Below, one piece after another: positions 35,433 through 49,133 of a DNA stretch of 50,298 bases. This DNA comes from Pedobacter sp. (GTDB taxonomy: Bacteria > Bacteroidota > Bacteroidia > Sphingobacteriales > Sphingobacteriaceae). The notes beneath the pieces were generated by a model. The model searched no databases. It was given only the letters and a program-made list of their open reading frames with translations, and was not told the DNA's origin. The number at the start of each line of letters is the position of its first letter. Positions within the stretch are counted from its first letter, which is position 1. The stretch is from positions 1 to 50,298 of the forward strand of contig JACMND010000065.1 of the NCBI GenBank assembly GCA_014378705.1. Direction: 5' to 3'. The translations under genes and the position numbers were made by a program.

Positions 35433-37616
35433 ATGAGTAAAACAATTATTGTATCGAACAGGCTACCTGTAAAAATTACCGATGACAATGGGGAGTTAAC
35501 TTTGTCTGCCAGCGAAGGTGGACTGGCAACCGGGCTGGGATCAATCTACCAACAAGGTGAAAATGTTTGGATTGGTTGGCCAGGCATGGATATTACAGAA
35601 CCGGAGCAGCAAAAGGAGGTAACAGAAAAGCTTAAAGCTATAAAGCTTATTCCTGTTTTTTTAAATCAGGAAGAAATAAGCGAGTACTATGAAGGATTCT
35701 CAAATGAAATACTCTGGCCTATTTTCCACTACTATGCCTCAACATTTACCAACTACCGGCAGTCTAACTGGGATTTTTATCAATTGGTGAATACCAAATT
35801 TAAAGAAGCTGTGGTAAGTATCGCTGAACCGGGGGATACTTTATGGATCCATGATTACCAATTGTTATTATTACCCGGGATGTTAAGAAAAGCACTTCCT
35901 GGTCTCAAAATTGGTTTTTTTCTGCATATACCATTTCCCTCTTACGAAATGTTCAGGCTGATTCCGTGGCGGGCGCAACTTTTAGAAGGAATGCTTGGTG
36001 CAGACCTAATAGGATTCCATACCTATGATGACGTTCAACATTTTATCGATGCAGTAGCCAGAATTCTTCCCTATAACTCCTCTTCAAATATCATATCAGT
36101 AAGAGACCGACCTGTAGTTGCCGAAGCGTTCCCGATGGGAATTGACGATAAGAAATACGCTGCTTTAACTGAGAAAGATGAAGTGAAAGAACAAATTGCA
36201 TTACTAAATCAAAATTTTAAAGACATCAAAATTATCCTTTCAATAGACCGCCTGGACTACAGCAAAGGGATTTTGCAAAGATTAGAAGCATTTGAACTTT
36301 TATTGAATCAATATCCGCAATATTTAGAAAAAATGGTTTTGTACATGATCGTTGTTCCTTCAAGGGACACCGTACCTCAGTACAAAGAACTTAGGGATGA
36401 GATTGATAAGCGTGTAGGAAATATTAATTCATTGTACAGAACTATTGAATGGACGCCAATATTATATTTTTACCGTTCATTTCCAATTGAAACACTATCC
36501 GCACTTTATTATATCGCGGATGTAGGTTTGGTTACGCCTATGCGGGATGGAATGAACCTGGTTAGTAAAGAATATGTTGCCAGCCGAACCCAGAATAACG
36601 GGGTGCTCATCCTTAGTGAAATGGCGGGAGCTTCTAAAGAGTTAATTGACGCCTTGATCGTAAATCCCAATAATATTGGTGATATAATGCAAGCCATAGT
36701 GAAAGCCCTAAACATGTCTGAAAGTGAACAAAAAACCAGAATGGAATCTATGAGGGAGGTTGTTTCTAAATTCAATGTGTTCCATTGGGTGAAAATTTAT
36801 ATGGACAAATTAAATGAAGTAAAAGAACTGCAACGCTCAAGAGAATCAAGGCACATTGATAACCATATAGGTTTAAAAATTAAGGAAGCTTTCAGAGCAG
36901 CGAAAAAACGTATTCTGTTTTTAGACTACGATGGGACTCTGGTGCAATTTCAAAATAATATCCAACAAGCAAACCCTGATGCCGCACTTTACCAACTTAT
37001 AACGCAAATGGTTTCTGACGAAGCCAATGAGGTTGTTTTGATTAGCGGCCGGGATTACCGTAACATGGAAGACTGGTTCGGACAAACCGGTGTAGACCTC
37101 ATCTCTGAGCATGGCGCCTGGCAAAAACTTAGAGACGGGGAATGGGAAAGTATAATTGGTTTAAATGATATCTGGAAGGTGGACATTATGCCAATATTAA
37201 AAGCTTACGTAGACCGCACCCCGGGCTCGTTTATAGAGGAAAAAAGTTTTTCGCTGGTATGGCATTACCGGAAATCACCGGAAGGTTTAGGTGAACTAAG
37301 ATCTAATGAACTTATTAATAACCTCACTTATCTTATTAAAGACAAAGGTTTGCAATTGTTGCCGGGAAACAAAGTAATTGAAATAAAAAACCTGGAAGTT
37401 AATAAAGGTAAAGCTGCTTTAAGCAGATTGTACCAGCGGAAATATGATTTTATTTTGGCTATCGGAGATGATCACACGGATGAGGATATTTTTAATACAA
37501 TACCCGATACCGCATTTACTATTAAAGTAGGAAGTATGATGTCGGCAGCACGTTTTTATCTCCGCCATACGGAAGAGGTGAGGGAGTTTTTAACTGACCT
37601 GACTAAACCGGTTTAA
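35433..37616 (+). CDS. otsAB: Fused trehalose-6-phosphate synthase/phosphatase
   Basis: A 727-residue bifunctional enzyme. The GT20 synthase domain (about 1-470) has [37 protein letters not shown] and the donor-binding [14 protein letters not shown]. The HAD-type phosphatase domain (about 485-727) has [11 protein letters not shown] with the nucleophile Asp, [12 protein letters not shown], and [10 protein letters not shown]. It makes trehalose from UDP-glucose and glucose-6-phosphate in one polypeptide, a stress and osmotic protectant. It is convergent with the GH15 gene, with a strong shared terminator. UDP-glucose is also the substrate of ugd and galE elsewhere in the window. Confidence 0.96.
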
Positions 37617-37676
37617 AAAAAAAGAGATAGTTATTTGATGACGATACCAAATCAATCATAGGGAAACTGCCATGTT

Positions 37677-37739
37677 TAAAATTTGCCCTTTATTTAAAAA
37701 AGCACGGGTTGTGCTTTTTTAAATAAAGGGCAAATTTTA
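37677..37739. terminator. Bidirectional terminator with 29-bp perfect arms
   Basis: Arms 37677-37705 and 37711-37739 are perfectly complementary over 29 bp around the 5-nt loop GGGTT. The core AAAAAAGCAC/GTGCTTTTTT gives A and T runs for termination in both directions, and the base contains a GCCC/GGGC clamp. It lies between the convergent otsAB and GH15 genes and touches the GH15 stop codon at 37740. Confidence 0.85.
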
Positions 37740-39521
37740 TTACAAAAAAACCGGCCGATCCAATTTTATGGCAATCCGGTAAGCCGCATTCATTAAACCA
37801 ACATGGCTGTAAGCCTGAGGGAAATTGCCCCACTGACTGCCTGTTTCCTCGTCCACATCTTCGCTAAACAATAACAAATGATTTGAGTACTGCATCAGGT
37901 TTTCAAATTCGCGTAAAGCATCATCCATTCGCCCAACACAGGCTAAAGCCTCTACATACCAAAAAGCACAAATCAAAAAAGTGGTTTTTGGCTTGCCGAA
38001 ATCGTCAGAATGCAGATAACGGTAAAATAACCCACCCGGAGTTTTTAATTCTTTTTCTAAAGCCATTAAATGATCTTTCGCACGCTCTGAGGCTGGATCC
38101 AGGTAGTTCATCATGATCAGTTGCAATGTACTGGCATCCAGATGCGGACTACCGACCGCATGGGTATAAACTTTTCTGACCGGGTCGTAACAACTTTCTA
38201 TATGCTGTGCCGCCCGGTTTTTTAACAAAATGGCTTTGCTCATCAACTCCCTATCATCTATTGCCAAGGCCATTTTTTCGGCGGCAGAACACCCGGCCCA
38301 CTGAAAAAGGTTACTGTAACAATGAACGTTCGCTATGTTTCTGAATTCCCAAATCCCAGCATCTTTTTCATCAATGGTCCGCTCTACTTTAGAAAGCAGG
38401 TAGTTAATCCATCTGGCAGAGTCTTTACGTTCTTTAAACACAAAACGGTGATCTATATACAAAGGAAGCATTGAGATAAGCACTTGACCATAAATATCAT
38501 TCTGGATGTGTTCATAAGCTTGGTTACCCACACGTACGGGCTTGTTGCCAAGATATCCGTGTAGGTGATCCAGGATTATTTCGGTCAGAACCTTTTCTCC
38601 CGTAATTCCATATAATGGCTGATATCTAAAATCTTCTGAAACCGAAATGTTGCTTAAATAATTAAAATACAACTCCATTTCTTCAAAGTGTCCAATATAA
38701 TTTAAGGAATTGATCACATAAAAACTATCGCGAAGCCAGCAATAACGATAATCCCAGTTACGGCCGCTTTCTGGAAATTCTGAAAGACTGGTTGTGCTTG
38801 CCGCGATAATTGCACCTGTATCCTCATATTGATGGATTTTTAATGCCAGCGCAGACCGAATAACCTGCGGCTGATAGAACGAGGCAATAGATGAATGCTT
38901 AATCCAGGTTCTCCAATAGGTCTTGGTTTCCCGTAGAAACTCTTCAGAGGTACTTACAAGAGGCGCCTCTAGCGGAGTACCAAAAGTTAACACCAGATAT
39001 CTTGCCTCGTTTAACACATTAAGCTGTTCGTCAAGCACGTAATTTATCGGGATATTCGTGGTCAGCCGGATGTTTTCTTCAGCACCTCTATAGTCGATAT
39101 GACTGCTTCCGCGGTGTGTTTGGAGCTCTTTTAATCCGTAATCGTAGGTAGGTTTACACTTTACTTTTATCCTCGGACTGCCCTCTAACACTTCAACTTT
39201 CCTGATGAGCATCAATGGCTTAAAAAATCTTTCATACTTATGAAAACGCGGGGCAAAATCAGTTATTCGATATTTGCCTTCCTGACAAGTAATTTCGGTA
39301 CAGAGTACGTTGGTGTTCTCAAGATAATATTGATTAGAAGTATATTCGCCGGCCGGAAGAATGGTAAATGAACCGCCTTTCTGATTGTCAAGCAATCCTC
39401 CGAACACAAATGAGCTGTCAAAACGGGGCCAGCAAAGCCACTCAATATTTGTATTGATATGCACATGCGCCAGATAGCCACAATTGCCAATTATTCCTGT
39501 TTGATAGGTGTGTTTTACCAT
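37740..39521 (-). CDS. Glycoside hydrolase family 15 protein (glucoamylase/trehalase-like)
   Basis: A 593-residue GH15 enzyme without a signal peptide, so cytoplasmic. The N-terminal beta-sandwich begins with GIIGNCGYLAHV and IEWLCWPRFDSS. The (alpha/alpha)6 barrel has the signature RNWDYRYCWLRDS, and a late QWGNFPQAYSHVGL segment is typical of the family. Known members hydrolyse alpha-glucans or, in mycobacteria, trehalose. Being convergent to otsAB suggests an alpha-glucoside role, perhaps degrading the trehalose made next door. The substrate is inferred, not seen. Confidence 0.9.
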   Translation of the reverse strand: MVKHTYQTGIIGNCGYLAHVHINTNIEWLCWPRFDSSFVFGGLLDNQKGGSFTILPAGEYTSNQYYLENTNVLCTEITCQEGKYRITDFAPRFHKYERFFKPLMLIRKVEVLEGSPRIKVKCKPTYDYGLKELQTHRGSSHIDYRGAEENIRLTTNIPINYVLDEQLNVLNEARYLVLTFGTPLEAPLVSTSEEFLRETKTYWRTWIKHSSIASFYQPQVIRSALALKIHQYEDTGAIIAASTTSLSEFPESGRNWDYRYCWLRDSFYVINSLNYIGHFEEMELYFNYLSNISVSEDFRYQPLYGITGEKVLTEIILDHLHGYLGNKPVRVGNQAYEHIQNDIYGQVLISMLPLYIDHRFVFKERKDSARWINYLLSKVERTIDEKDAGIWEFRNIANVHCYSNLFQWAGCSAAEKMALAIDDRELMSKAILLKNRAAQHIESCYDPVRKVYTHAVGSPHLDASTLQLIMMNYLDPASERAKDHLMALEKELKTPGGLFYRYLHSDDFGKPKTTFLICAFWYVEALACVGRMDDALREFENLMQYSNHLLLFSEDVDEETGSQWGNFPQAYSHVGLMNAAYRIAIKLDRPVFL

Positions 39522-39585
39522 CTAAATTGTTTTGGGTATTGCGTATTATGAAATTAAATAACTCAAATCAGTCCTTGATCAAAAA

Positions 39586-40668
39586 TCACAATCCTTTGTT
39601 CTTGATTCCTCCTTCAATTTCAGCTCTTGTTTTAGGCAAACAACCTGGGTGATTATTTTGAATGAAACCGATCAACCCTTCCCGAATCTGACAGCGGAGA
39701 TCAAACACATCCGAAGAATTTCTGCCACTAACCAAAGCCCTGATTTCTATACTGTCACTTTTTGTTTCGGTTACCTGCAAGGCCATCACTTTCTCATCCC
39801 ACAACGCATTCGATTGAAGTAAACGACTTAACTCTTCCCTCAATTTTTGAATTGGGGCGGTGTAATCCAAATAAAGAAAAACCGAACCAATAAGTTCTGC
39901 CGAAACACGAGTCCAATTTTGAAAAGGTTGTTCGATAAAATAGTTAATGGGAAGTATTAATCTTCTTTGGTCCCAAATGTTTAAAACCACATAAGTCATA
40001 TTAATTTCTTCAACCCTGCCCCATTCGCCTTCCACTACCAATACATCATCAATACGGATCGGTTGCGTAAAGGCGATTTGAAAACCAGCCAGAAGATTCC
40101 CCAATGACTTCTGTGCGGCAAAACCGATGATAATACTCCCTACGCCCACACCTGTTAACAAACCTGCCCCTATCTTTCTCATGCTTTCAAAACTCAGCAA
40201 AATAATACCGGCAGTAATGATCACAATTAAAGCAACGCTTATTTTGCGTACAAACTGAAGCTGTGTTCTTAATTTCCGTTCCCGCAAATTGTTTTCTTTA
40301 CGAAAATCATACCGGTGATAATAATAATCTTCAAGAATTTTTATTATTTGAATGATTAAGAAGGCAAATACAAGGGTGAAAAAAATTTCAATAACCCTAC
40401 CTAATGGCAAAAAAGTTGATTTACCCATTTGCATAGACGGTAGAGCAATGCTAAGCATAAGCAGTGGCAGGAAAAAGGTCATCGTCTTTTTGAGATGCCT
40501 GATAATTGATTTTACCAGATAATAATCGGTAATCCTTGCATAGTAGTTAAAAGACTGGCTTAAGATAAATTTTAGGAGAAGACCGGCAGAGATCGCAGTT
40601 AGGGCAATAAGAATGTTCAAAAGCAGATCCGGATACTTTCCAAACAAGTCATTGATTTGATCTGACAT
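39586..40668 (-). CDS. MscS-family mechanosensitive ion channel
   Basis: A 360-residue membrane protein with four hydrophobic segments (about 15-35, 55-75, 90-110 and 140-165). The MscS pore helix and beta domain follow: LLTGVGVGSIIIGFAAQKSLG, FTQPIRIDDVLVVEGEWGRVEEI, and LPINYFIEQPFQNWTR. It opens on membrane tension during hypo-osmotic shock and releases small solutes. It lies 64 nt upstream of the GH15 gene and between two trehalose-related genes, so it may release trehalose or other osmolytes after osmotic downshift. That link is inference. Confidence 0.9.
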   Translation of the reverse strand: MSDQINDLFGKYPDLLLNILIALTAISAGLLLKFILSQSFNYYARITDYYLVKSIIRHLKKTMTFFLPLLMLSIALPSMQMGKSTFLPLGRVIEIFFTLVFAFLIIQIIKILEDYYYHRYDFRKENNLRERKLRTQLQFVRKISVALIVIITAGIILLSFESMRKIGAGLLTGVGVGSIIIGFAAQKSLGNLLAGFQIAFTQPIRIDDVLVVEGEWGRVEEINMTYVVLNIWDQRRLILPINYFIEQPFQNWTRVSAELIGSVFLYLDYTAPIQKLREELSRLLQSNALWDEKVMALQVTETKSDSIEIRALVSGRNSSDVFDLRCQIREGLIGFIQNNHPGCLPKTRAEIEGGIKNKGL

Positions 40669-40794
40669 AAAAAGCCTAACAATCTAATTGCTTATAAGTT
40701 ATCTTCAATAAAAACTAATCAATATTAAAAAAGATTTTTAATAAAATATTCTTAGGATAATTGGATAAATAACTCTGTAAATAACAGCAATCTT

Positions 40795-42360
40795 TTAGTC
40801 CTCAATTTTATATTTATTCATCAGTTTTATCAGTACGCCGTTTGTCCAGCCAAAACCATCTTGTGAAGGATACTCACCACCACCTGCTTCTAAGTTTGTA
40901 TCGGTAACATTATACTTTTCCATTAATTTTCCTGTACGATGAAAAATCTTGATGTTTAGAGTGATCCAGCGTTCGGCAATTAACCTGGCCAAATCATGCT
41001 GACGGTAGTTTTCTAATCCATGTACAGCCATCCATTGTAAAGGTGCCCAGCCATTCGGTGCATCCCATTGCTGCCCGGTATTATTTAATGTTGTAGTTAA
41101 GCCTCCAGACTTTAAGAATTTAGACTTAATATTTTCTGCTATTTTTTTGGATTGATTTGCAGTGCTCATTTTAAAAAACAGCGGATATACTGTTGCCAGG
41201 GAAGGGATTTTTACTTGTTTTTTTGTCTGAAAGTTATAATCGTAATACAAACCATCATTTTCATTCCAGCAATATTGATTTAAAAAATTTATTCTTTTTT
41301 CTGAACCGGCTTGATAAAAGGCAGCCCTTTCGTTATCACCCATAAGCTTATACGTTTTAGCAAGTGTTTGCTCTAATCCATATAATAAGCTATTCAAATC
41401 AACCGGTATAATATCTGTGGTTTTAATAGATTGAATGTTTTTACCATCGGCAAACCAACGGCTACTAAAATCCCAGCCGCTTGCAGCGCCTGAACGGAGA
41501 TGCCTGTATATTTCTTTGCTATTTCTATTTGAATTTAAAGCGGTTAAAGAATCCTCACGAAAGCTTTCCTGCCGTGGGGTTTCCCTATCGTCCCAGTACC
41601 GGTTCATGGTAAAGCCCTTTATTGAAACTACACAACGGTCAGCGGATACCAGTTTTAGTTTAGACTGATCTGCCTGCATCCAATAGCTATATTCCTTTTC
41701 CATCGCCGGAAGATACGATCGGTAAATGCTGTCGCCTTTAACTTCTGCGAGCAAACCAACCATTAATGAGAAGAATGGAGGCTGCGAACGGCTTAAATAG
41801 TACGAGCGGTTTCCGTTGGGAATATGTCCGTAAGCTTCAATCAGGTAAGCAAAGTTCTTAACCATATTCTCCATTAAAGCGGTTTCTTTACTTTCCTGAA
41901 GCCCGAGCATCGTAAAATAAGAGTCCCAATAATAAATTTCGCGAAAACGCCCTCCTGGTACCAGGTAAGGATTTGGCAGCGGAAGTAAAGAACTACCTTC
42001 TACTACCAAATCAGGTTTGCGTTGTAATGCTTGCCATAATTTTTCTATATGAAGTTTAACGCTTTTTGAAGTATCCGATTGGTATGAACTTACAAAATTA
42101 CCAGGCACAAAGAAATTACTATCAATAAAAGATTTGAGCGAGAAGCCTTGTTTGTTCCTATTCAATCTGTAATCCGTTAATATTACCCCCGGGCTTTTTT
42201 TAGGCACACAGTCAACAAACGTTTTACCATCTGCAAAAACTTTCTCCATTTGCACAGATGTAAACAGTTCTTTGAAAATTTCATCAGGGGTTTTAACCTG
42301 TTGAGAAAAAACCTGAAAGGAAACAGATACGAAGAAAATTAAGGAACAGAATCTGATCAT
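40795..42360 (-). CDS. treA: Exported GH37 trehalase
   Basis: A 521-residue GH37 trehalase. The signal peptide (about 1-20, MIRFCSLIFFVSVSFQVFSQ) predicts the periplasm. Both family signatures are visible: PGGRFREIYYWDSYF and QWDAPNGWAPLQW. A C-terminal GGEYPSQDGFGWTNGV is also family-typical. Hydrolyses trehalose to two glucose. I chose the ATG at 42360 because it begins a good signal peptide. Upstream in-frame codons to 42525 run into the hairpin of the preceding gene and are not a credible N terminus. Confidence 0.94.
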   Translation of the reverse strand: MIRFCSLIFFVSVSFQVFSQQVKTPDEIFKELFTSVQMEKVFADGKTFVDCVPKKSPGVILTDYRLNRNKQGFSLKSFIDSNFFVPGNFVSSYQSDTSKSVKLHIEKLWQALQRKPDLVVEGSSLLPLPNPYLVPGGRFREIYYWDSYFTMLGLQESKETALMENMVKNFAYLIEAYGHIPNGNRSYYLSRSQPPFFSLMVGLLAEVKGDSIYRSYLPAMEKEYSYWMQADQSKLKLVSADRCVVSIKGFTMNRYWDDRETPRQESFREDSLTALNSNRNSKEIYRHLRSGAASGWDFSSRWFADGKNIQSIKTTDIIPVDLNSLLYGLEQTLAKTYKLMGDNERAAFYQAGSEKRINFLNQYCWNENDGLYYDYNFQTKKQVKIPSLATVYPLFFKMSTANQSKKIAENIKSKFLKSGGLTTTLNNTGQQWDAPNGWAPLQWMAVHGLENYRQHDLARLIAERWITLNIKIFHRTGKLMEKYNVTDTNLEAGGGEYPSQDGFGWTNGVLIKLMNKYKIED

Positions 42361-42524
42361 AAAAGCGAAATTACAATGTCTGGAAAGATAATAAATTTGC
42401 TGATTATGTGTTTCAAGACTTTGATAAAAGCTGATTGCCAAAGCAGCTAAACCAGACAGAAACGGTAGCCCAGTGAGGCTTGAATGGGCTAAAGTGTATA
42501 GCCGGGTTATCCTTAATATAAACA

Positions 42525-42572
42525 TAGAAACCTGCTTTCCTAATCCCCATGAGATTGAAAAGCAGGTTTCTA
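42525..42572 (-). terminator. Inverted repeat after the haloperoxidase gene, possible terminator
   Basis: A perfect 14-bp stem (42525-42538 with 42559-42572, TAGAAACCTGCTTT and its complement) with a 20-nt loop, 9 nt after the stop at 42582. There is no strong T run after it, so it may be a 3'-end stabilising hairpin and not an efficient terminator. It separates the haloperoxidase gene from treA. Confidence 0.5.
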
Positions 42573-42581
42573 AATAACAGT

Positions 42582-44123
42582 TTAGTTTGCACCATCAGTT
42601 TGGGCCCGGCTAATAGCCAGATCACCTACCTTTTTGCCTGTAACAAGCCCTTGCTGACAATCTGAACGGAAATGGATGCCTCCAAACATTCTGGAGTTAG
42701 ACGCTTCTAAAGCCATTGCAGTAAAATCAGCAGCCTTTTGAGGAACTAAATGACCAAGAATTGTAGCAGCCGCCGCACTAAAAGTTGAGTGGCCGGAAAT
42801 ATACGCCGGAAAATTTGGCACCCCGGTAAGGGTCTTAATGTTGGGATCCAATTGGCAGGGACGGGCATTTAAGTAAAAATATTTTGTATCCCAACACACA
42901 ATCGCCGCATCCATCAAAGCTGAGTTTAACAATGCGTAATTCCGTGCCCAACGAATCTCGCTAAACTGGCCTTTTATAAATTCATTGGTAGCAATGGCGT
43001 TCCAATGACCCGGAGGAGTATACGTACCAACACCGTCAGCCCAAAAATTAACAATTCGCATATTTTCTCTGGTTGCGTTTTGGGTAAATTTTAATACTTC
43101 ATTTGTTTCCGTCCGCATTTGATCGCTATTTGTTGGAGGAGGGGGAATGGCACGAAGTGAAGCAACCTCGGCCTGTGCGAAAAGTAAAGGTTTTACTTTA
43201 CCGAACAAGGCAAGCATCGGAGGCCTTTTAGGAGATTCTAAGGATATCCAGGGAGTTTCTCCTCTTGCGATGCAATCAGATTCCAGTTTGGCCCAAATTG
43301 CGGGGTTCCCTCCTGCTGTAGCCATCCCGTCTGTTTTAGCACGCTGAACAACCTGACGAGCTACCCAACGACCTAAAGAATCACCAGCCGCAAGATCACT
43401 TTGAACATTGGCTCCGCTCCATAACCGGTAATTTTTTTCCTGCTCAGCCATTTTCTTGATGTACTCTATATCAGCGGGGAAAAGTAACTTCATTATTTCT
43501 AAGGATGCCCCTGAAATTACCGCATCTTCTGATGGATATGAAGGAAGATCAGTTTTGGGAACAGAAACTGACAGGGTTAGATCCGTTTTATAAGGTGCCG
43601 GCCTATTGTGCAAGGTTTTATATTTCCATGCCATAATTAGTGCATCATATTGCGCAAGACTTAAATAAGCGTAGGCCCTCGCTGCATAAGGCGGGTTTGA
43701 AAAAGGAAAAACCGGATAAGAAAAAGGGTTTGCGGCACTCGGGGCTGGATACGTGTTGTCTTCTTTTTGATAAGGAGGAATGTTGTGCTTCGCTACAAGT
43801 TCACGCATGATTTCGTTCCAGCGCAGCACACTTCCTGCTTTCCAATAATCTATAGCCTTCTTTTGTTCTGCTGAAAGGTTGGAACTGAGCACTTTCAATT
43901 CTTTTAATTCTTCCTGGTAAGACGAAGAACTAATCGGCAGAGGATCTGGAAAAAGATTTCCACTAAGTGATGCCACTATAAACGGTTTCCAGGTTCCTCC
44001 GTTAAGATCTTGTGTTGCTGGATTTAAAGATTGATAATCTGCATTAGATTCAACGACATCTTTATTACAGGAAAGAACAAGCATTGCTAATCCAAATATT
44101 GATAAAGTAAGATTTTTTTTCAT
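42582..44123 (-). CDS. Vanadium-dependent haloperoxidase/PAP2 lipoprotein with duplicated active-site region
   Basis: A 513-residue lipoprotein (signal peptide with LVLSC, Cys19). The C-terminal PAP2/vanadium haloperoxidase domain has all signature residues: K414-x6-R421-P422, S443-G444-H445, and S477-R478-x5-H484-x3-D488. An internal repeat is visible. Residues 147-266 align with 393-511, sharing AR-x-YA near the start and RA(K/Q)TDG at the end. The N-terminal copy keeps K167-x6-R174-P175, has PSED for PSGH, and R233-x5-N239-x3-D243 for the His motif. It is likely a catalytically dead lobe. Located in the periplasm or outer membrane. Whether the enzyme oxidises halides or is an acid phosphatase cannot be decided by eye. 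Confidence 0.87.
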   Translation of the reverse strand: MKKNLTLSIFGLAMLVLSCNKDVVESNADYQSLNPATQDLNGGTWKPFIVASLSGNLFPDPLPISSSSYQEELKELKVLSSNLSAEQKKAIDYWKAGSVLRWNEIMRELVAKHNIPPYQKEDNTYPAPSAANPFSYPVFPFSNPPYAARAYAYLSLAQYDALIMAWKYKTLHNRPAPYKTDLTLSVSVPKTDLPSYPSEDAVISGASLEIMKLLFPADIEYIKKMAEQEKNYRLWSGANVQSDLAAGDSLGRWVARQVVQRAKTDGMATAGGNPAIWAKLESDCIARGETPWISLESPKRPPMLALFGKVKPLLFAQAEVASLRAIPPPPTNSDQMRTETNEVLKFTQNATRENMRIVNFWADGVGTYTPPGHWNAIATNEFIKGQFSEIRWARNYALLNSALMDAAIVCWDTKYFYLNARPCQLDPNIKTLTGVPNFPAYISGHSTFSAAAATILGHLVPQKAADFTAMALEASNSRMFGGIHFRSDCQQGLVTGKKVGDLAISRAQTDGAN

Positions 44124-44198
44124 CTGAGTATTTTATTACTAATTGTGCCGAAAATCAAATGATAAACCAATTTGTTTACCGGCAGTTAAGATTAAATT

Positions 44199-45134
44199 TT
44201 ATTTCTTTGAATTTTTAAAAGGAAAATCGAGTATGTAATCTATACCTGTTAAAAAACCCGCGGCCTGACCAACATTTCTGCCGGCTATTGTATTCCATAC
44301 ATTGGCATGAAACCCAAGGGAAGGGAGCGATTTCAAATAATATTTCCCCTCAAGGCCAATTTTTGAGCTGTTCATTCGATTGCTGATAAAAGGCATGTCG
44401 TTCTTACGGATATCAAATCCGCCGAAAGTAGTCATGTTGTCAACAAAAACCTCTGCGAAACCTCTGGTATTTCTATATCCTGTTCGAAATTGAAAACTGC
44501 CCGCATCAGGCATTCTCACCGATGATGAGTTAATCTGATGATCCGTATAATAAGCAGACCTGTCTATAGAAACATTTCCACGGTGCATATATCCGGCAGA
44601 GATTGTTGCAAAAATCTTGTTGAATTTGTAATCTGCCGTTAGTCGGCCGTTTAAAACACGGCTTCCCATACCAATGGTCATTGGCATAAAATCCACATTA
44701 TAATTATTGCTTGGTGTAGAATATCCGGCTACTGCAAAAAGTGAAAGAAATTGTTTACCAAACTGCTTTTTAACTGGTCGCCATTTTACAAAGAAAGACA
44801 CATCCTGAAAACCTTTCAAGCCACTTAATGTGCCCTGACTGGCTACAGTGGACATATAAGGTAAAGTAGCCATTATATTCAGGTTTTTTCTCAAACCATA
44901 ATTTAACATTAAAGCGGCTGTTCGTGTTGACAACACACCGATGTTCGCGTTATTGCGCTTAAATTCTCCCTCCCAGTAATTTTCCCAGCTATTGTAAGCA
45001 TAGGTTCCAGCAATACATAAACGTTTTTCTCCCATCATTAAGCCGTCCTGCTCGGTCTGGGCTTTCGCAACTATGGGCAATGTAAAGAGCATTATAAAAC
45101 ATAGTTTAACTATACGTTCTAAGTATTTTTTCAT
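44199..45134 (-). CDS. Outer-membrane beta-barrel protein, MetA/transporter-like
   Basis: A 311-residue exported protein. The signal peptide (about 1-25, VAKAQ) is followed by alternating amphipathic strands rich in aromatic residues, for example AALMLNYGLRKNLNIMATLPYMS and GFAEVFVDN. It resembles the outer-membrane barrels annotated as phenol-degradation meta-pathway or transporter-type proteins. A ligand cannot be assigned. It lies 5 nt downstream of one PAP2 lipoprotein gene and 75 nt upstream of the other, so the three are probably one transcription unit. Confidence 0.72.
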   Translation of the reverse strand: MKKYLERIVKLCFIMLFTLPIVAKAQTEQDGLMMGEKRLCIAGTYAYNSWENYWEGEFKRNNANIGVLSTRTAALMLNYGLRKNLNIMATLPYMSTVASQGTLSGLKGFQDVSFFVKWRPVKKQFGKQFLSLFAVAGYSTPSNNYNVDFMPMTIGMGSRVLNGRLTADYKFNKIFATISAGYMHRGNVSIDRSAYYTDHQINSSSVRMPDAGSFQFRTGYRNTRGFAEVFVDNMTTFGGFDIRKNDMPFISNRMNSSKIGLEGKYYLKSLPSLGFHANVWNTIAGRNVGQAAGFLTGIDYILDFPFKNSKK

Positions 45135-45139
45135 AGATT

Positions 45140-46489
45140 CTAATTTTTTGAAGTTAATTTGGAATTTGATTTGCGCAACTTTAATCGGTTAGTTACTAAC
45201 TGGCCAATCTGTATGCCTTGTAAAGTTCCTACTTTACAAGAATTTGTATAATGAATTCCTCCATATACACGTGATCTGCTTGCTTCCTGAGCTGCTTTAC
45301 GAAAAGACTCAAATGTCCTCTGCGGTAATCCAAATTCTGTTCCCGAAGTATCTCGAAAACCGACATTATCTCCATATACATCTGTCAACACTTCGGCGGT
45401 AGCTGCAGAAATTACCGCATGACCGCTTGTATATTCTGGAAACGGAGGAGTTTGTAAGTATGGCCGCCACTCCGGGTTAATATGTCGCTTGATAACCGTT
45501 TCCGGCCGCACATAATTTGTTTTAAACTTTGCTTCCCAGCAGCTTATGAAGGCATCAAAAAGTGCGATAGATGAAAGCGCATAAGTGCTTACCGTTGTAT
45601 TGAAGTCATCTTTGTTGTTTTCGCTGGCTATGCCTACAATATTTAACCAATGACCGCCGGGAGAAAACTTTTTAGTAGCAAAGCTGACATGACCAACCAC
45701 ATTTAGTTTAAAAGGGTTATCGTCCCAAAAATCGGCAATTTGTTTTTGCTCATCAGTTAAACTGTCCACAATCAATTTCACTTCAATTAAGTTTTTATAG
45801 AAGTCGCCTTGCTTGTTTTTTATATTGTAAACCGGCGGGGCAGGGTAAGAAATTTCTGAAGCTGAGTCTAAAACCATAGGCCTGATCTCGCACCAGTGCG
45901 GCTCAAGTGCCTGAGCATACATGGGTGGCGTTGGAAGCCAGCGTCCATCCTCATCCTTTACGGTAAATTTGCTTGCAGAACGGAGCTTTAAATAATTATC
46001 ATTTTTGCTCCAAAGCAGGATATGTTTTGCCACTTTGTCCGCGTAATTTATTGAAGCATCCATAACCTCTCCCGGCATACCTGCATCATCCGCCTTTTGC
46101 TTTAATTCATCCACATATTCGTCCATGCTTCCTTCCGGGAAGGTTACTGCATTACCAACGGTACAAAAGGCAAGCAATGAGGCAAAGTGAAAGTCAACAT
46201 TCTGATCATCAGGCTTGGGCACCGTACGTAAATGCTTAATTTGCCCTGCAAGTGACCGATAATTATTTGTATCGCCGGCGGCAATTACTTCATAAGCCGC
46301 TATGTTTGCATAAGCGTAATTTCTAGACGCAATTACAGGTGGAAAATTATTTTCAAGCACAATATTATTGAGCCTTTTAACCGTCTGGCGATACAGAGCG
46401 GGGTCATGCACAACTTTTTTATAATCAGATTGCTTGCAAGAGGTGATTAGCAGAAATATTCCCGCCGTCAAAAATGAAATACGATTCAT
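45140..46489 (-). CDS. Second vanadium-dependent haloperoxidase/PAP2 lipoprotein
   Basis: A 449-residue lipoprotein from the ATG at 46489 (signal with LLITSC, Cys18). An upstream TTG at 46510 is less likely. Signature residues: K321-x6-R328-P329, S355-G356-H357, and S406-R407-x5-H413. The position of the usual Asp, three residues after H413, is Ser417. The N-terminal half contains no recognisable second copy of the motif, unlike its neighbour. Anchored in the outer membrane or periplasm. It oxidises halides or removes phosphate; the D-to-S change makes activity uncertain. The gap to the downstream barrel gene is 5 nt. Confidence 0.86.
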   Translation of the reverse strand: MNRISFLTAGIFLLITSCKQSDYKKVVHDPALYRQTVKRLNNIVLENNFPPVIASRNYAYANIAAYEVIAAGDTNNYRSLAGQIKHLRTVPKPDDQNVDFHFASLLAFCTVGNAVTFPEGSMDEYVDELKQKADDAGMPGEVMDASINYADKVAKHILLWSKNDNYLKLRSASKFTVKDEDGRWLPTPPMYAQALEPHWCEIRPMVLDSASEISYPAPPVYNIKNKQGDFYKNLIEVKLIVDSLTDEQKQIADFWDDNPFKLNVVGHVSFATKKFSPGGHWLNIVGIASENNKDDFNTTVSTYALSSIALFDAFISCWEAKFKTNYVRPETVIKRHINPEWRPYLQTPPFPEYTSGHAVISAATAEVLTDVYGDNVGFRDTSGTEFGLPQRTFESFRKAAQEASRSRVYGGIHYTNSCKVGTLQGIQIGQLVTNRLKLRKSNSKLTSKN

Positions 46490-46539
46490 AGTAAGCTTTA
46501 AGTTAGACAATACATTTTTTTAAAGCCGTTGGCTTTATA

Positions 46540-47094
46540 CTAGGATGTATGAACTCTGGGCGGCATTTTAAGCTTCTGAGAAAAGCCTTTGTGTATCTCT
46601 AAAGTGTAAAGAAAACGGTCCTGCCTTATATTGATTATGATTGGCAAAGATGAGAGAAGATTTTTTACTTCCTGATAATAATCGGTTTTAGCTTGTTTCA
46701 GAACTGGTTTTTTATTTGTTTCTGAAGTCAGATCATTTACTTTTTTGTAGTAATCAGCGCTATTTTGTTCTATCTGATATTTTTCGGTATGATCAATACA
46801 TAATAATATTAGGGTGTCCCGCAACACTTTGCGCTTAACATATTTGTAAGTTTTACCTTTAAAATTCATTTCACCGTCTATAGATTCAAATTCACGCCAA
46901 TCTGTTTGATACGGTAAGTTGATTGGGATTTTAACAGTTATTAAACGCTTGTCAAGCTCGTTAAGGGATTGGATTGTAGACGCAATGCGAATGTCTGCCT
47001 GCTGCTCCAAATAGAAAAAAAACGCTTTGTAACCTATTATATTAAACAGGAACACAAAGAGTAAAAATATGGATGCGGTCTTTTTCAAAATCAA
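46540..47094 (-). CDS. Membrane-anchored protein of unknown function
   Basis: A 184-residue protein with one N-terminal hydrophobic segment (about 5-25, SIFLLFVFLFNIIGY) followed by a charged extracytoplasmic domain. There is no cysteine motif or known domain that I recognise. No ATG exists before residue 76, so the start is most likely TTG at 47094, overlapping the GH65 stop as TTGA (4 nt), or the second TTG two codons on. The overlap implies translational coupling to the GH65 gene. The next gene is a PAP2 lipoprotein 50 nt downstream. Function unknown. Confidence 0.72.
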   Translation of the reverse strand: MILKKTASIFLLFVFLFNIIGYKAFFFYLEQQADIRIASTIQSLNELDKRLITVKIPINLPYQTDWREFESIDGEMNFKGKTYKYVKRKVLRDTLILLCIDHTEKYQIEQNSADYYKKVNDLTSETNKKPVLKQAKTDYYQEVKNLLSSLPIIINIRQDRFLYTLEIHKGFSQKLKMPPRVHTS

Positions 47095-49133
47095 TGAACA
47101 AGATACGTTTTTTTCTCAATTCCGACACCTGTCATTTTAAGTGATTTCCAGCCCGGCGGAAGTGTAGATTTTAATTGAACGATGCCTTTATCTGTAATAT
47201 CCAAACCGCCAAATCCCATTAATAAAGACTGTATTATGCCCCCTGCACCTGTCGCGAAATAAGGATTGGTTCCACCTTTAGTTTCGGCGATAACCCGAAA
47301 AGGAGGATTTAGATTTGGTACATAAGAATCTTTAAAAAAAGCATGGGCTTTTTTCCCATCACCTAAGCGGGCATATAAAAGGCTGAAAATAGCTTGTGTC
47401 ATAGCCGGTGTTCCTTCATCCGGCACTCGTGTTTCATAATATTCAAGGTCCTTCCGGATCTGGTCTGGGTCTGTAATCTCTTTTAAAGGATACGGAAGCA
47501 GGTTAACATCACCCTGTTTAATTCCTTCGCCTTTGTAAGTAGCGTGCTCCCTTGTTACCCCGTTTTCCATTTTTAAAATTGGAATGTTGTTCGATACCAG
47601 CATCCAATCCGGATCGGCTTTTACACCTAACAATTTAGCAGCAGCAGTCGCGTTTTGCAAATTTGCTTTAGCCGCAGCATTGGTAAACGCGTTGTTGTCT
47701 ACATTTTCAGCCCATTCATCAGCAGCTACTACATTTTTTATATCGTATTTTCCAGGCCCGTTCCGTTCTACCCTGCTTGCCCAAAAATCTGCGGTGGATG
47801 ATAAGATAGGCCAGCCTTTTTCACGCAGCCATTCTTTATCCTGGGTTACGCTATAATAATTCCATGCAGCTAACGCGACACAGGCAGTTATGTGATGTTC
47901 AAATGGCCCGCTTAAAGCCCAAACAGGGGTTTCCTCTACACCTGTATCCGCACTTTCCCATGGAAACATCGCACCGTTATAACCATGAGAAAACGCATTT
48001 TTTCGGGCTGCATCCAATCTTTGATATCGGTATTCAACCAGTGATTTTGCGATTTCAGGCTGCAAGACCAACAATGCAGGAAACATCCAAATTTCTGTAT
48101 CCCAAAAAACATGACCATTGTAACCTAAGCCTGAAAGGCCCATTGGGGAAAGTGAAAATCCTGACCCAGCCCTGGAAAATGAATACAAATGATACAACAT
48201 GCTGTGTACATCCTGCTGAGCTTGCGCATCACCTTCAATTTGTATGTCGCTTTCCCAAAGTTTATCCCAGGCTTGATTATGGAATTTTATTAGTCGGTCA
48301 CGCCCTTCTAATTTCGCGAAAATGGTCAAACGCTCAGCTTCATTTAACGGATCAGGATGATGAGCGGAGGTGATAGATGAACCAACAATTGAAAATTTAT
48401 ACGTTTGACCGGCTTTCAGATTTTTTCTGAACTTGGTTAAGTGCATGTTATTATCCCACATTTCGTGGATAAGCTTCGGTTCCTGACCATGCGCTTCATT
48501 AAACATAAATGTAGTAGATGCACATAACTGGAGTTTCCCGGTTGGGCTTTTTGCCGATGACGTTAACAGGGCAATATTTACATGCGGACGATCTATCTCA
48601 TTGTAATAGTTCTGTACATCTTTTAGGGCATCCGGGGCTTCCATTACGCTGGAAGGAGAAATAACAAGATCTTTTTTGGCGATGATGGATACATCCATTA
48701 AAACGGTAAATGGCAACTGGCGAAGGGAATAATAAGTATAGGTTACCACAGCCTTATCCTGATAATCAAAACTGCCTGTGAAAGAGGCATGACGCATATC
48801 TAACTCTTGTTTAAGGTTTTTAGCAGCTTTAGCATCCAATCTCACACCATCGATATCCAGGTTCATGTTAAGCAGGTTAAAACTATTTAGAAAATTACTG
48901 ACCCTTCCCCGCCCGTATTGATCATATGCACCCGCCAATACCACATTTTTTACCTTAAAGGGCTCAGGAGAGGATACTACTCCGATCATTCCGTTGGCTA
49001 CGGATATGCCGTAATAATTGGAAGGGTCGATTTTGTTTACTGAAATTTTCCATGAATCAGGTTTTGATTGGGAAAATGAGTATTTCGATGGAAGTAGAAA
49101 AAAGAGTATAATTGCCAGCCTTAAAAATCGCAT
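47091..49133 (-). CDS. Exported GH65 enzyme, likely an alpha-glucoside hydrolase (trehalose/kojibiose-type)
   Basis: A 680-residue GH65 protein with a signal peptide (about 1-22, SKYSFSQ). The family (alpha/alpha)6 barrel has WDTEIWMFPALL and the catalytic acid region ADEWAENVDNNAFTN, close to the DExxE-VDNNAYTN of GH65. Near the C terminus ETKGGTNPYFATGAGG stands where phosphorylases have a serine-rich phosphate-binding loop, which favours hydrolysis over phosphorolysis. Kojibiose hydrolases in GH65 have been reported from Bacteroidota, and acid trehalases also belong here. Which substrate it uses is not decided by the sequence. It is first in the exported gene group and coupled to the next gene by overlap. 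Confidence 0.86.
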   Translation of the reverse strand: MRFLRLAIILFFLLPSKYSFSQSKPDSWKISVNKIDPSNYYGISVANGMIGVVSSPEPFKVKNVVLAGAYDQYGRGRVSNFLNSFNLLNMNLDIDGVRLDAKAAKNLKQELDMRHASFTGSFDYQDKAVVTYTYYSLRQLPFTVLMDVSIIAKKDLVISPSSVMEAPDALKDVQNYYNEIDRPHVNIALLTSSAKSPTGKLQLCASTTFMFNEAHGQEPKLIHEMWDNNMHLTKFRKNLKAGQTYKFSIVGSSITSAHHPDPLNEAERLTIFAKLEGRDRLIKFHNQAWDKLWESDIQIEGDAQAQQDVHSMLYHLYSFSRAGSGFSLSPMGLSGLGYNGHVFWDTEIWMFPALLVLQPEIAKSLVEYRYQRLDAARKNAFSHGYNGAMFPWESADTGVEETPVWALSGPFEHHITACVALAAWNYYSVTQDKEWLREKGWPILSSTADFWASRVERNGPGKYDIKNVVAADEWAENVDNNAFTNAAAKANLQNATAAAKLLGVKADPDWMLVSNNIPILKMENGVTREHATYKGEGIKQGDVNLLPYPLKEITDPDQIRKDLEYYETRVPDEGTPAMTQAIFSLLYARLGDGKKAHAFFKDSYVPNLNPPFRVIAETKGGTNPYFATGAGGIIQSLLMGFGGLDITDKGIVQLKSTLPPGWKSLKMTGVGIEKKTYLVH

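Follow-up and report, generated by a model that had tools for sequence, protein, structure and literature searches.

When one of two copies of a catalytic domain within the same polypeptide has lost its active site, is the dead copy withering away or is it being kept? This question is raised by a gene on the minus strand of the window (i.e. the whole 50,298-nucleotide stretch of Pedobacter DNA that was analysed), which is located at 42582..44123 and encodes a two-lobe PAP2/haloperoxidase-type lipoprotein of 513 aa. The original prediction concerned positions 42591-43685 (minus), corresponding to residues 147-511 of this open reading frame. It held that residues 147-266 and 393-511 are copies of one active-site region, that the N-terminal copy is a product of duplication and decay, and that this copy might serve as a regulatory or second oxyanion site.

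Very probably, the protein is a fused live/dead pair of tandem PAP2 domains, in effect a fused dimer, in which the dead lobe is conserved. In this two-lobe family, the duplication is legible in sequence and several of its states have living representatives. The family hints at how two-part enzymes of the haloperoxidase kind may have arisen, and it makes it possible to ask directly why a lobe with a dead site stays as strictly conserved as its live twin.

Two homologous lobes with the same predicted fold

Residues 1-19 (44067..44123, minus) comprise a predicted signal peptide and lipobox, with C19, invariant in both the 27-row and the 80-row alignment, being read as the lipobox cysteine. A Pfam search with the whole protein placed PAP2 (PF01569) at residues 401-496 with 53.3 bits (cut-off 27.2), i.e. 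in the C-terminal half, and no Pfam family reached its cut-off in the N-terminal half, where the single row was DUF6851 (12.4 bits, cut-off 27). The N lobe submitted alone had no Pfam match at E values up to 1, and VCPO_2nd (PF22778) stayed below its cut-off for the two-lobe protein (17.8 bits versus 27). The product is described here as a putative lipoprotein of the PAP2/vanadium-haloperoxidase superfamily, its enzymatic class being putative as well.

Residues 147-266 and 392-511 can be superimposed without a single gap at an offset of 245, yielding 36/120 identical and 54/120 positive positions and a BLOSUM62 score of 133. Ungapped controls scored far lower, with -47 for the runner-up of 128 offsets and -12 for the maximum of 10,000 shuffles. 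The predicted full-length alignment of the two segments is thereby borne out, apart from the start of the second one, which lies at 392 and not at 393. Smith-Waterman alignment with gaps led to the same picture, both for the two segments (140 versus a shuffle maximum of 49, n=2,000) and for the two halves, residues 43-266 and 308-511 (158 versus 57, n=2,000). Upstream of residue 147, a pairwise comparison restricted to that part yields no more than weak similarity (score 54; 5/2,000 shuffles scored at least as high).

Profile-profile comparison, using lobe profiles built from 49 sequences, aligned the N and C lobes over 199 columns, 43-268 with 308-513, at a probability of 99.9 and an E value of 5.2e-32 (for one pair). 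The repeat that had been proposed is thus real but was drawn too narrowly, as it takes in the whole lobes. Accordingly, we define an N lobe (residues 43-266; 43326..43997, minus), in which the PAP2 domain is catalytically dead, and a catalytic C lobe (residues 308-511; 42591..43202, minus). The interlobe stretch (residues 267-307; 43203..43325, minus) falls outside the profile-profile alignment except for residues 267-268, leaving residues 269-307 outside the repeat. Mean entropy is 1.80 at residues 267-291, compared with 1.19 at 43-266 and 1.16 at 292-511. Two pairs of tryptophans, W94/W361 and W102/W374, correspond across the lobes.

An AlphaFold2 model of the whole protein (80 sequences; pLDDT 90, pTM 0.90) contains eight helices per lobe in matching order, and different folds for the two segments were not seen. 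In the N and C lobes, respectively, these helices span residues 67-81/334-348, 85-94/352-361, 98-112/370-385, 144-172/389-417, 177-180/422-425, 199-214/444-459, 216-235/461-480 and 241-263/486-509. Folded alone (residues 40-270), the N lobe reached a pLDDT of 87.7, and its top match in the PDB was the catalytic half of 4cit (195-444; Z 18.7, rmsd 2.1, 201 aligned residues). Within 1 Z of this match were the haloperoxidases 3w35 (18.4), 3w36 (18.0) and 8cxl (17.8) as well as the acid phosphatases 7f17 (Z 18.1) and 8yc1 (Z 17.9); the catalytic half of the Curvularia chloroperoxidase (223-570) followed with Z 16.8. The whole model matched 4cit with Z 33.9 (rmsd 2.5, 355 aligned residues, ~22-23% identity) and the Curvularia chloroperoxidase with Z about 25 (1vnc 24.9), both with ranges that span the two lobes, a range here being defined by the first and last aligned residue only. 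Of the single-lobe acid phosphatases, 7f17 aligned with the N lobe (Z 16.3; range 46-270) and 1eoi aligned with the C lobe (Z 15.8; range 309-513). The predicted model thus has the two-bundle fold of bacterial and fungal vanadium haloperoxidases. Taken together, the two lobes are homologous and share the same predicted fold. Sequence, profile and predicted structure all support a duplication after which the N copy lost catalytic residues.

How does this architecture compare with known systems? The closest structural relative is the Zobellia galactanivorans vanadium iodoperoxidase (4cit, 4usz); Zobellia is named together with a vanadium iodoperoxidase in a title cited by PMC11871015. Like the window protein, this enzyme has two lobes and the same fold across both, and its C-lobe signature is complete up to the second histidine; unlike in the window protein, the first part of the AR helix is recognisable in profile alignment of its N lobe, but not the Lys-Arg and YPSED remnants. 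The chloroperoxidase of Curvularia inaequalis (1vnc, 1idq) is likewise made of two helical bundles, and its W350, F397 and D292 align with W411, F438 and D363 of the window protein. In its N-terminal bundle, the profile meets the AR helix only (43-65; 2.0 bits, which is not significant by itself). Class A acid phosphatases (7f17, 1eoi) have the fold found in each of the lobes; however, they consist of a single lobe, which sets them apart from the window protein with its two lobes in sequence and predicted structure, and 7f17 lacks the Trp and Phe at the W411 and F438 slots.

The two-bundle architecture of haloperoxidases as such is already known at the structure level. In PASS2 (PMC3779223), the reason given for the outlier status of the chloroperoxidase d1vnsa_ is 'Duplication of secondary structures', and a review (PMC9144378) describes the algal bromoperoxidase as having one bundle per monomer, with the dimer making the two-bundle core. 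The Ascophyllum bromoperoxidase thus uses two chains where the window protein uses one chain with one dead copy. Among the passages and listings obtained from the open-licence literature, we found no description of the conserved dead N-lobe site, of the single-lobe and intermediate relatives, or of the residue correspondence.

Live and dead sites residue by residue

To compare the two sites, residues were counted in 128 different sequences, comprising the window protein, 48 further sequences and 79 from the best 80 of 563 loci; close relatives are over-represented in this set, and a species may appear twice across its two parts. Orthologs were defined by phmmer scores >300 bits, with L033, L034 and L035 (partial) and L001 and L004 (the window itself) being excluded, and the 80-row alignment omits L078 (in-frame stop).

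As judged from sequence, no residue of a vanadate/phosphate site is missing from the C lobe, and each of them is present in 128/128. These are K414 (42882..42884), R421 (42861..42863), S443-G444-H445 (42789..42797), R478 (42690..42692), H484 (42672..42674) and D488 (42660..42662; all minus), which together give the vanadium haloperoxidase signature K-x6-RP, SGH and SR-x5-H-x3-D. In the Curvularia chloroperoxidase, they align with K353, R360, S402-G403-H404, R490, H496 and D500, respectively. H496 of this enzyme is the ligand of vanadate, and the glycine backbone of SGH contacts the oxyanion. His496, Lys353, Arg360 and Arg490 are termed active-site residues in a title listed among the references of PMC11871015. 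The C copy is complete, just as predicted.

The N lobe presents a different picture. The counterpart of K414 is K169 (43617..43619, minus), with Lys in 127/128 and Arg in the remaining one. The original prediction had named K167 as the conserved lysine; position 167 holds Lys in just 14/128. The SGH motif is matched by S198-E199-D200 (43524..43532, minus), where position 198 is Ser in 124, Asn in 2 and Cys in 2 sequences, the Gly slot at 199 is Glu in 124 and Asp in 4, and the first His slot at 200 is Asp in 113, Ala in 9, Gly in 4, Gln in 1 and His in 1. The counterpart of R478 is R233 (43425..43427, minus; Arg in 110/128), and that of D488 is D243 (43395..43397, minus; Asp in 107 and Glu in 21 of 128). 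In the second His slot, N239 (43407..43409, minus) is Asn in 110, Ala in 15, Cys in 2 and Phe in 1, i.e. His in 0/128. The loss of both histidines from the N copy, with D200 and N239 in their slots, is thus confirmed. Seven other N lobes with a readable motif were examined beyond the 128. In all 135/135, an acid occupies the Gly slot and the second His is gone, the first His being kept in 5.

The arginine of the RP motif needs a separate look. R174 (43602..43604, minus), which is invariant in 128/128, had been proposed to form with P175 the counterpart of R421-P422, and a gapped pairwise alignment does pair them. This assignment was rejected on the grounds of the gap-free register, the helix boundaries (177-180/422-425) and relatives that have both arginines (at K+5 and K+7). 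The gap-free register instead gives A176-P177, where position 176 is Ala in 123, Ser in 3, Pro in 1 and Met in 1 of the 128 sequences and never Arg. Since A176-P177 fills the slot of the vanadate Arg-Pro, the N copy has lost the RP arginine too; it is still there in the six N lobes that belong to either the alphaproteobacterial or the L155-L157 type. This mends which residues of the dead copy match which catalytic ones. With catalytic residues lost across the family and the predicted fold kept, the N lobe can be regarded as a putative pseudoenzyme.

What, then, is R174? In the lobe set, an arginine at K+5 is found in 22/22 N lobes, 3/29 C lobes, 0/3 single lobes and the Rhizobium acid-phosphatase outgroup, and 7f17 has it in the alignment likewise. 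An earlier reading of R174 as specific to N lobes was withdrawn because the outgroup and the 3/29 C lobes share the arginine. R174 is probably an old feature retained by the N lobe and not the mark of a newly built latch.

Selection on the dead lobe and readings of its pocket

Purifying selection acts on the N lobe much as it does on the C lobe, and the N-lobe pocket is frozen at K169, R174, Y196, S198 and E199. Median dN/dS is 0.056 in the N lobe and 0.064 in the C lobe, as calculated with our own Nei-Gojobori script from 27 pairs that are 80-99% identical, have dS <1.5 and are not independent of each other. Mean pairwise identity is similarly close (0.609 versus 0.629; 2,000 random pairs). 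For nine N-pocket positions, picked after viewing the alignment and including R174 instead of A176, mean entropy is 0.50, whereas sets drawn at random from that segment give 1.16, with 0.4% of 10,000 such sets being as low; for K169, R174, S198 and E199, chosen in the same way, it is 0.12, matched by 1 in 10,000 random sets. The idea that the N copy is still decaying is not upheld by these data, which place the dead pocket among the most conserved parts of the N lobe.

If the protein is indeed a fused live/dead pair, the C lobe would perform the chemistry, be it that of a haloperoxidase or a phosphatase, and the N lobe would be retained as the second helical bundle, which may pack against the catalytic bundle and shape its entrance. 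As for the dead pocket, we tentatively suggest from the residues present that it is filled by the protein itself, with E199 facing K169 and R174. Such a built-in carboxylate, together with the two positive residues, could replace the bound oxyanion and hold the loop together. What weakens this reading is that the arginine of R174 has counterparts outside N lobes. More doubtful still is a general rule by which a carboxylate enters the Gly slot whenever a PAP2 site dies and pairs with the leftover positive residues. The dead lobe would then be a selected latch and oxyanion mimic, and canonical vanadium haloperoxidases would descend from such a live/dead fusion, in which the plugged site later disappeared altogether. 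Two observations weigh on the latch and reduced its probability, namely the presence of the K+5 arginine outside N lobes and a leucine in the Gly slot of one canonical protein.

Alternatively, the N pocket might have become a new functional site in which E199, D200, N239 and D243 bind a cation or another ligand, regulating the enzyme or its partners. Its conservation beyond that of random positions from the same segment (0.4%, or 1 in 10,000 for the four-residue set) would fit such a role, as would its acidic character at 199 and mostly also at 200 and 243. However, replacement of D200 by Ala, Gly, Gln or His in 15/128 and of N239 by Ala, Cys or Phe in 18/128 is loose for a metal site, and two to three positive residues share the pocket, which makes this an unlikely reading.

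It is quite improbable that the N lobe is a second oxyanion site that binds phosphate or vanadate without catalysis, as had originally been considered. Retention of Lys169 (127/128), R233 (110/128) and S198 (124/128) speaks for it, but the glycine has turned into an acid in 128/128 and in 7/7 others, the ligand histidine is found in 0/135, and the RP arginine is lost in the window family (Ala176 in 123/128, never Arg). A pocket filled by the protein itself would likewise disfavour an oxyanion there.

Plain neutral decay, in which what is left of the motif merely awaits its loss and has no meaning, would account for the missing histidines and RP arginine; it is very hard to reconcile with nearly equal identities in the two lobes (0.609/0.629), with an omega of ~0.06 in both and with R149, D160, R174, Y196, P216, G247 and D265 being kept in 128/128. 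Finally, convergence of helical bundles without any duplication can practically be dismissed. In its favour, both lobes are helical and middling structural Z scores are common among such bundles; against it stand 30% gap-free identity over 120 residues and a profile E value of 5.2e-32.

Relatives, lobe trees and gene neighbours

The fused live/dead pair can be placed in a series of relatives ranging from single-lobe proteins with a live site over two-lobe proteins with one N-lobe histidine and the window family to canonical haloperoxidases whose N pocket is unreadable. Outside Bacteroidota, sampling covered plasmid records only. At one end are single-lobe proteins of ~237 aa with an intact site (PSAH; R-x5-H-x3-D) on plasmids of Priestia and Pseudalkalibacillus. 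The Priestia protein, a 'vanadium-dependent haloperoxidase' (WP_237894396), is homologous to both lobes of the window protein and matches each half separately with 84.3 and 69.3 bits; it differs in having one lobe of 237 aa, with K-x6-RP, PSAH and R-x5-H-x3-D all intact. A Hymenobacter plasmid protein of 217 aa (L148) was discarded as a further single-lobe candidate, as a 218-aa gene lies just upstream and the two may be a split two-lobe gene.

Intermediates with one N-lobe histidine include plasmid proteins of Phyllobacterium and Rhizobium (PSEH; second His replaced by Gln), L155 and L156 from Bacteroidota (PCEH; Val and Gln, respectively, in the second His slot) and L052 (PSEH; Asn in that slot). 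In the N lobes of L157 and Microvirga, the first histidine is lost as well. At E values up to 1, PAP2 matches two stretches each in L144, in the Phyllobacterium and Microvirga proteins (P0004, P0005) and in L052. The Pfam family VCPO_N was tried as an identifier of the N lobe and rejected, since nothing was listed for the two-lobe protein at E up to 1. Below the cut-off, VCPO_N matched the N lobe of the Phyllobacterium protein (E 9e-4), the N lobe of L052 (0.007) and the C lobe of L144 (0.011); such weak matches in either lobe agree with the lobes being copies but are no proof of it.

At the other end of the series are canonical haloperoxidases, including the neighbouring gene product P0002, in which the lobe profile recovers the C lobe and just pieces of the N lobe. 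In L149, L146 and L145 (plasmid), what the lobe profile found was the AR helix, the helix that follows the former motif or the end with LG..VA..I..DG, in each case without the Lys-Arg and YPSED residues; the leucine aligned at the Gly slot of a canonical N lobe belongs to L149.

Lobe trees were calculated from hand-picked rows, 19/49 for the first tree and 15 of those plus others for the second. In the first tree (53 lobes, acid-phosphatase outgroup), N lobes from Bacteroidota group with those from Alphaproteobacteria in one clade (97/89), and the C lobes of the two-lobe family join those of canonical haloperoxidases (96/78). Three alphaproteobacterial C lobes grouped with the N side, and a single C clade was neither recovered nor rejected (p-AU 0.39). 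The second tree (54 lobes) contained more intermediates and two extra canonical C lobes, with the outgroup and four lobe pairs removed. Here, 29 C lobes fall on one side of a branch (98/89) and 22 N lobes on one side of another, the support of the latter (87/62) not being strong, with the single-lobe proteins in between. The trees would fit a single old duplication that canonical haloperoxidases share, which we favour; the single-lobe proteins of Bacilli, which sit on a long branch, could instead reflect secondary loss of a lobe.

A single duplication in a single-lobe PAP2 ancestor would thus have given rise to the two-lobe line, canonical vanadium haloperoxidases included. The N site may have died early, losing the ligand histidine and exchanging Gly for Glu before the N lobes diverged, and the acid/base histidine would have been lost later. 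In the lobe-tree set, the Gly slot is acidic in 22/22 N lobes and in 1/29 C lobes. The latter is a dead C lobe, encoded in the genome of L154 by a paralog in tandem with a complete two-lobe gene. In this C lobe, SGH has become SDQ, R478 Glu and H484 Ser, making the Gly slot acidic once more. A second death of this kind matches the expectation from a rule by which dead pockets are filled, though one event is little. The examples of a latch would be E199 opposite K169 and R174 in the N lobes and SDQ in this paralog.

The neighbourhood of the gene was compared across 80 loci (the best 80 of 563), with all counts being lower bounds as some loci lie near contig ends. Directly upstream, a beta-barrel-like gene (44199..45134, minus) has a homolog in the same place and on the same strand in 79/80 loci; in the remaining one, L070, the contig starts just before the two-lobe gene. 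The beta-barrel-like protein of the window matched no Pfam family, and a relative showed a weak DUF5777 match below the cut-off. Next to it lies the second haloperoxidase-like gene, P0002 (45140..46510, minus; 456 aa), which is of the canonical type, with VCPO_2nd at 27.1 bits (cut-off 27) and PAP2 at 26.9 bits, just short of its cut-off of 27.2. Operon content across the 80 loci gives no pointer to the substrate. A homolog of the canonical haloperoxidase is found upstream in 39/80 loci, with a cut piece located downstream in L114, and relatives of a 184-aa gene, a kojibiose-hydrolase-type GH65 gene and a trehalase gene are present in 52/80, 25/80 (once on the opposite strand) and 17/80 loci, respectively.

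Genes around the two-lobe gene

Directly upstream of the two-lobe gene lies a beta-barrel-like gene (window 44199-45134), which is linked to it in 79 of the 80 relatives' loci compared for neighbouring genes. Upstream too, at window 45140-46510, is a canonical haloperoxidase-like gene, i.e. one of the type whose N-lobe pocket motif is unreadable. The surroundings (window 35433-49133) contain disaccharide metabolism genes, namely a fused trehalose-phosphate synthase/phosphatase, GH15, trehalase and a kojibiose hydrolase (GH65), together with an MscS-like channel gene. The same genome carries two more haloperoxidase-like genes (L002 and L003, on contigs C41 and C180), whose open frames of 472 and 455 amino acids are of canonical length.

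Possible intermediates

In the two-lobe proteins of loci L164 and L159, the family profile of one PAP2 lobe meets the N lobe in only two pieces, which flank an absent active-site stretch. These N lobes are possible steps on the way to the canonical N bundle.

Altered and interrupted lobes

At locus L154, two tandem paralogs of the two-lobe type lie on the minus strand (ORFs at offsets 822 and 3496): one has an intact C-lobe site, the other is dead in both lobes, its C lobe carrying SDQ in the SGH slot, Glu for R478 and Ser for H484. The two-lobe protein encoded on a Microvirga ossetica plasmid (L141, 3001-4287) has PSNA in its C lobe, such that the first histidine is absent from both lobes, and retains the second histidine in the C lobe. 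Finally, the Flavobacterium hibisci ortholog (L078) is split into pieces of 189 and 354 amino acids by a single in-frame stop inside the N lobe, at residue 163 of the match.
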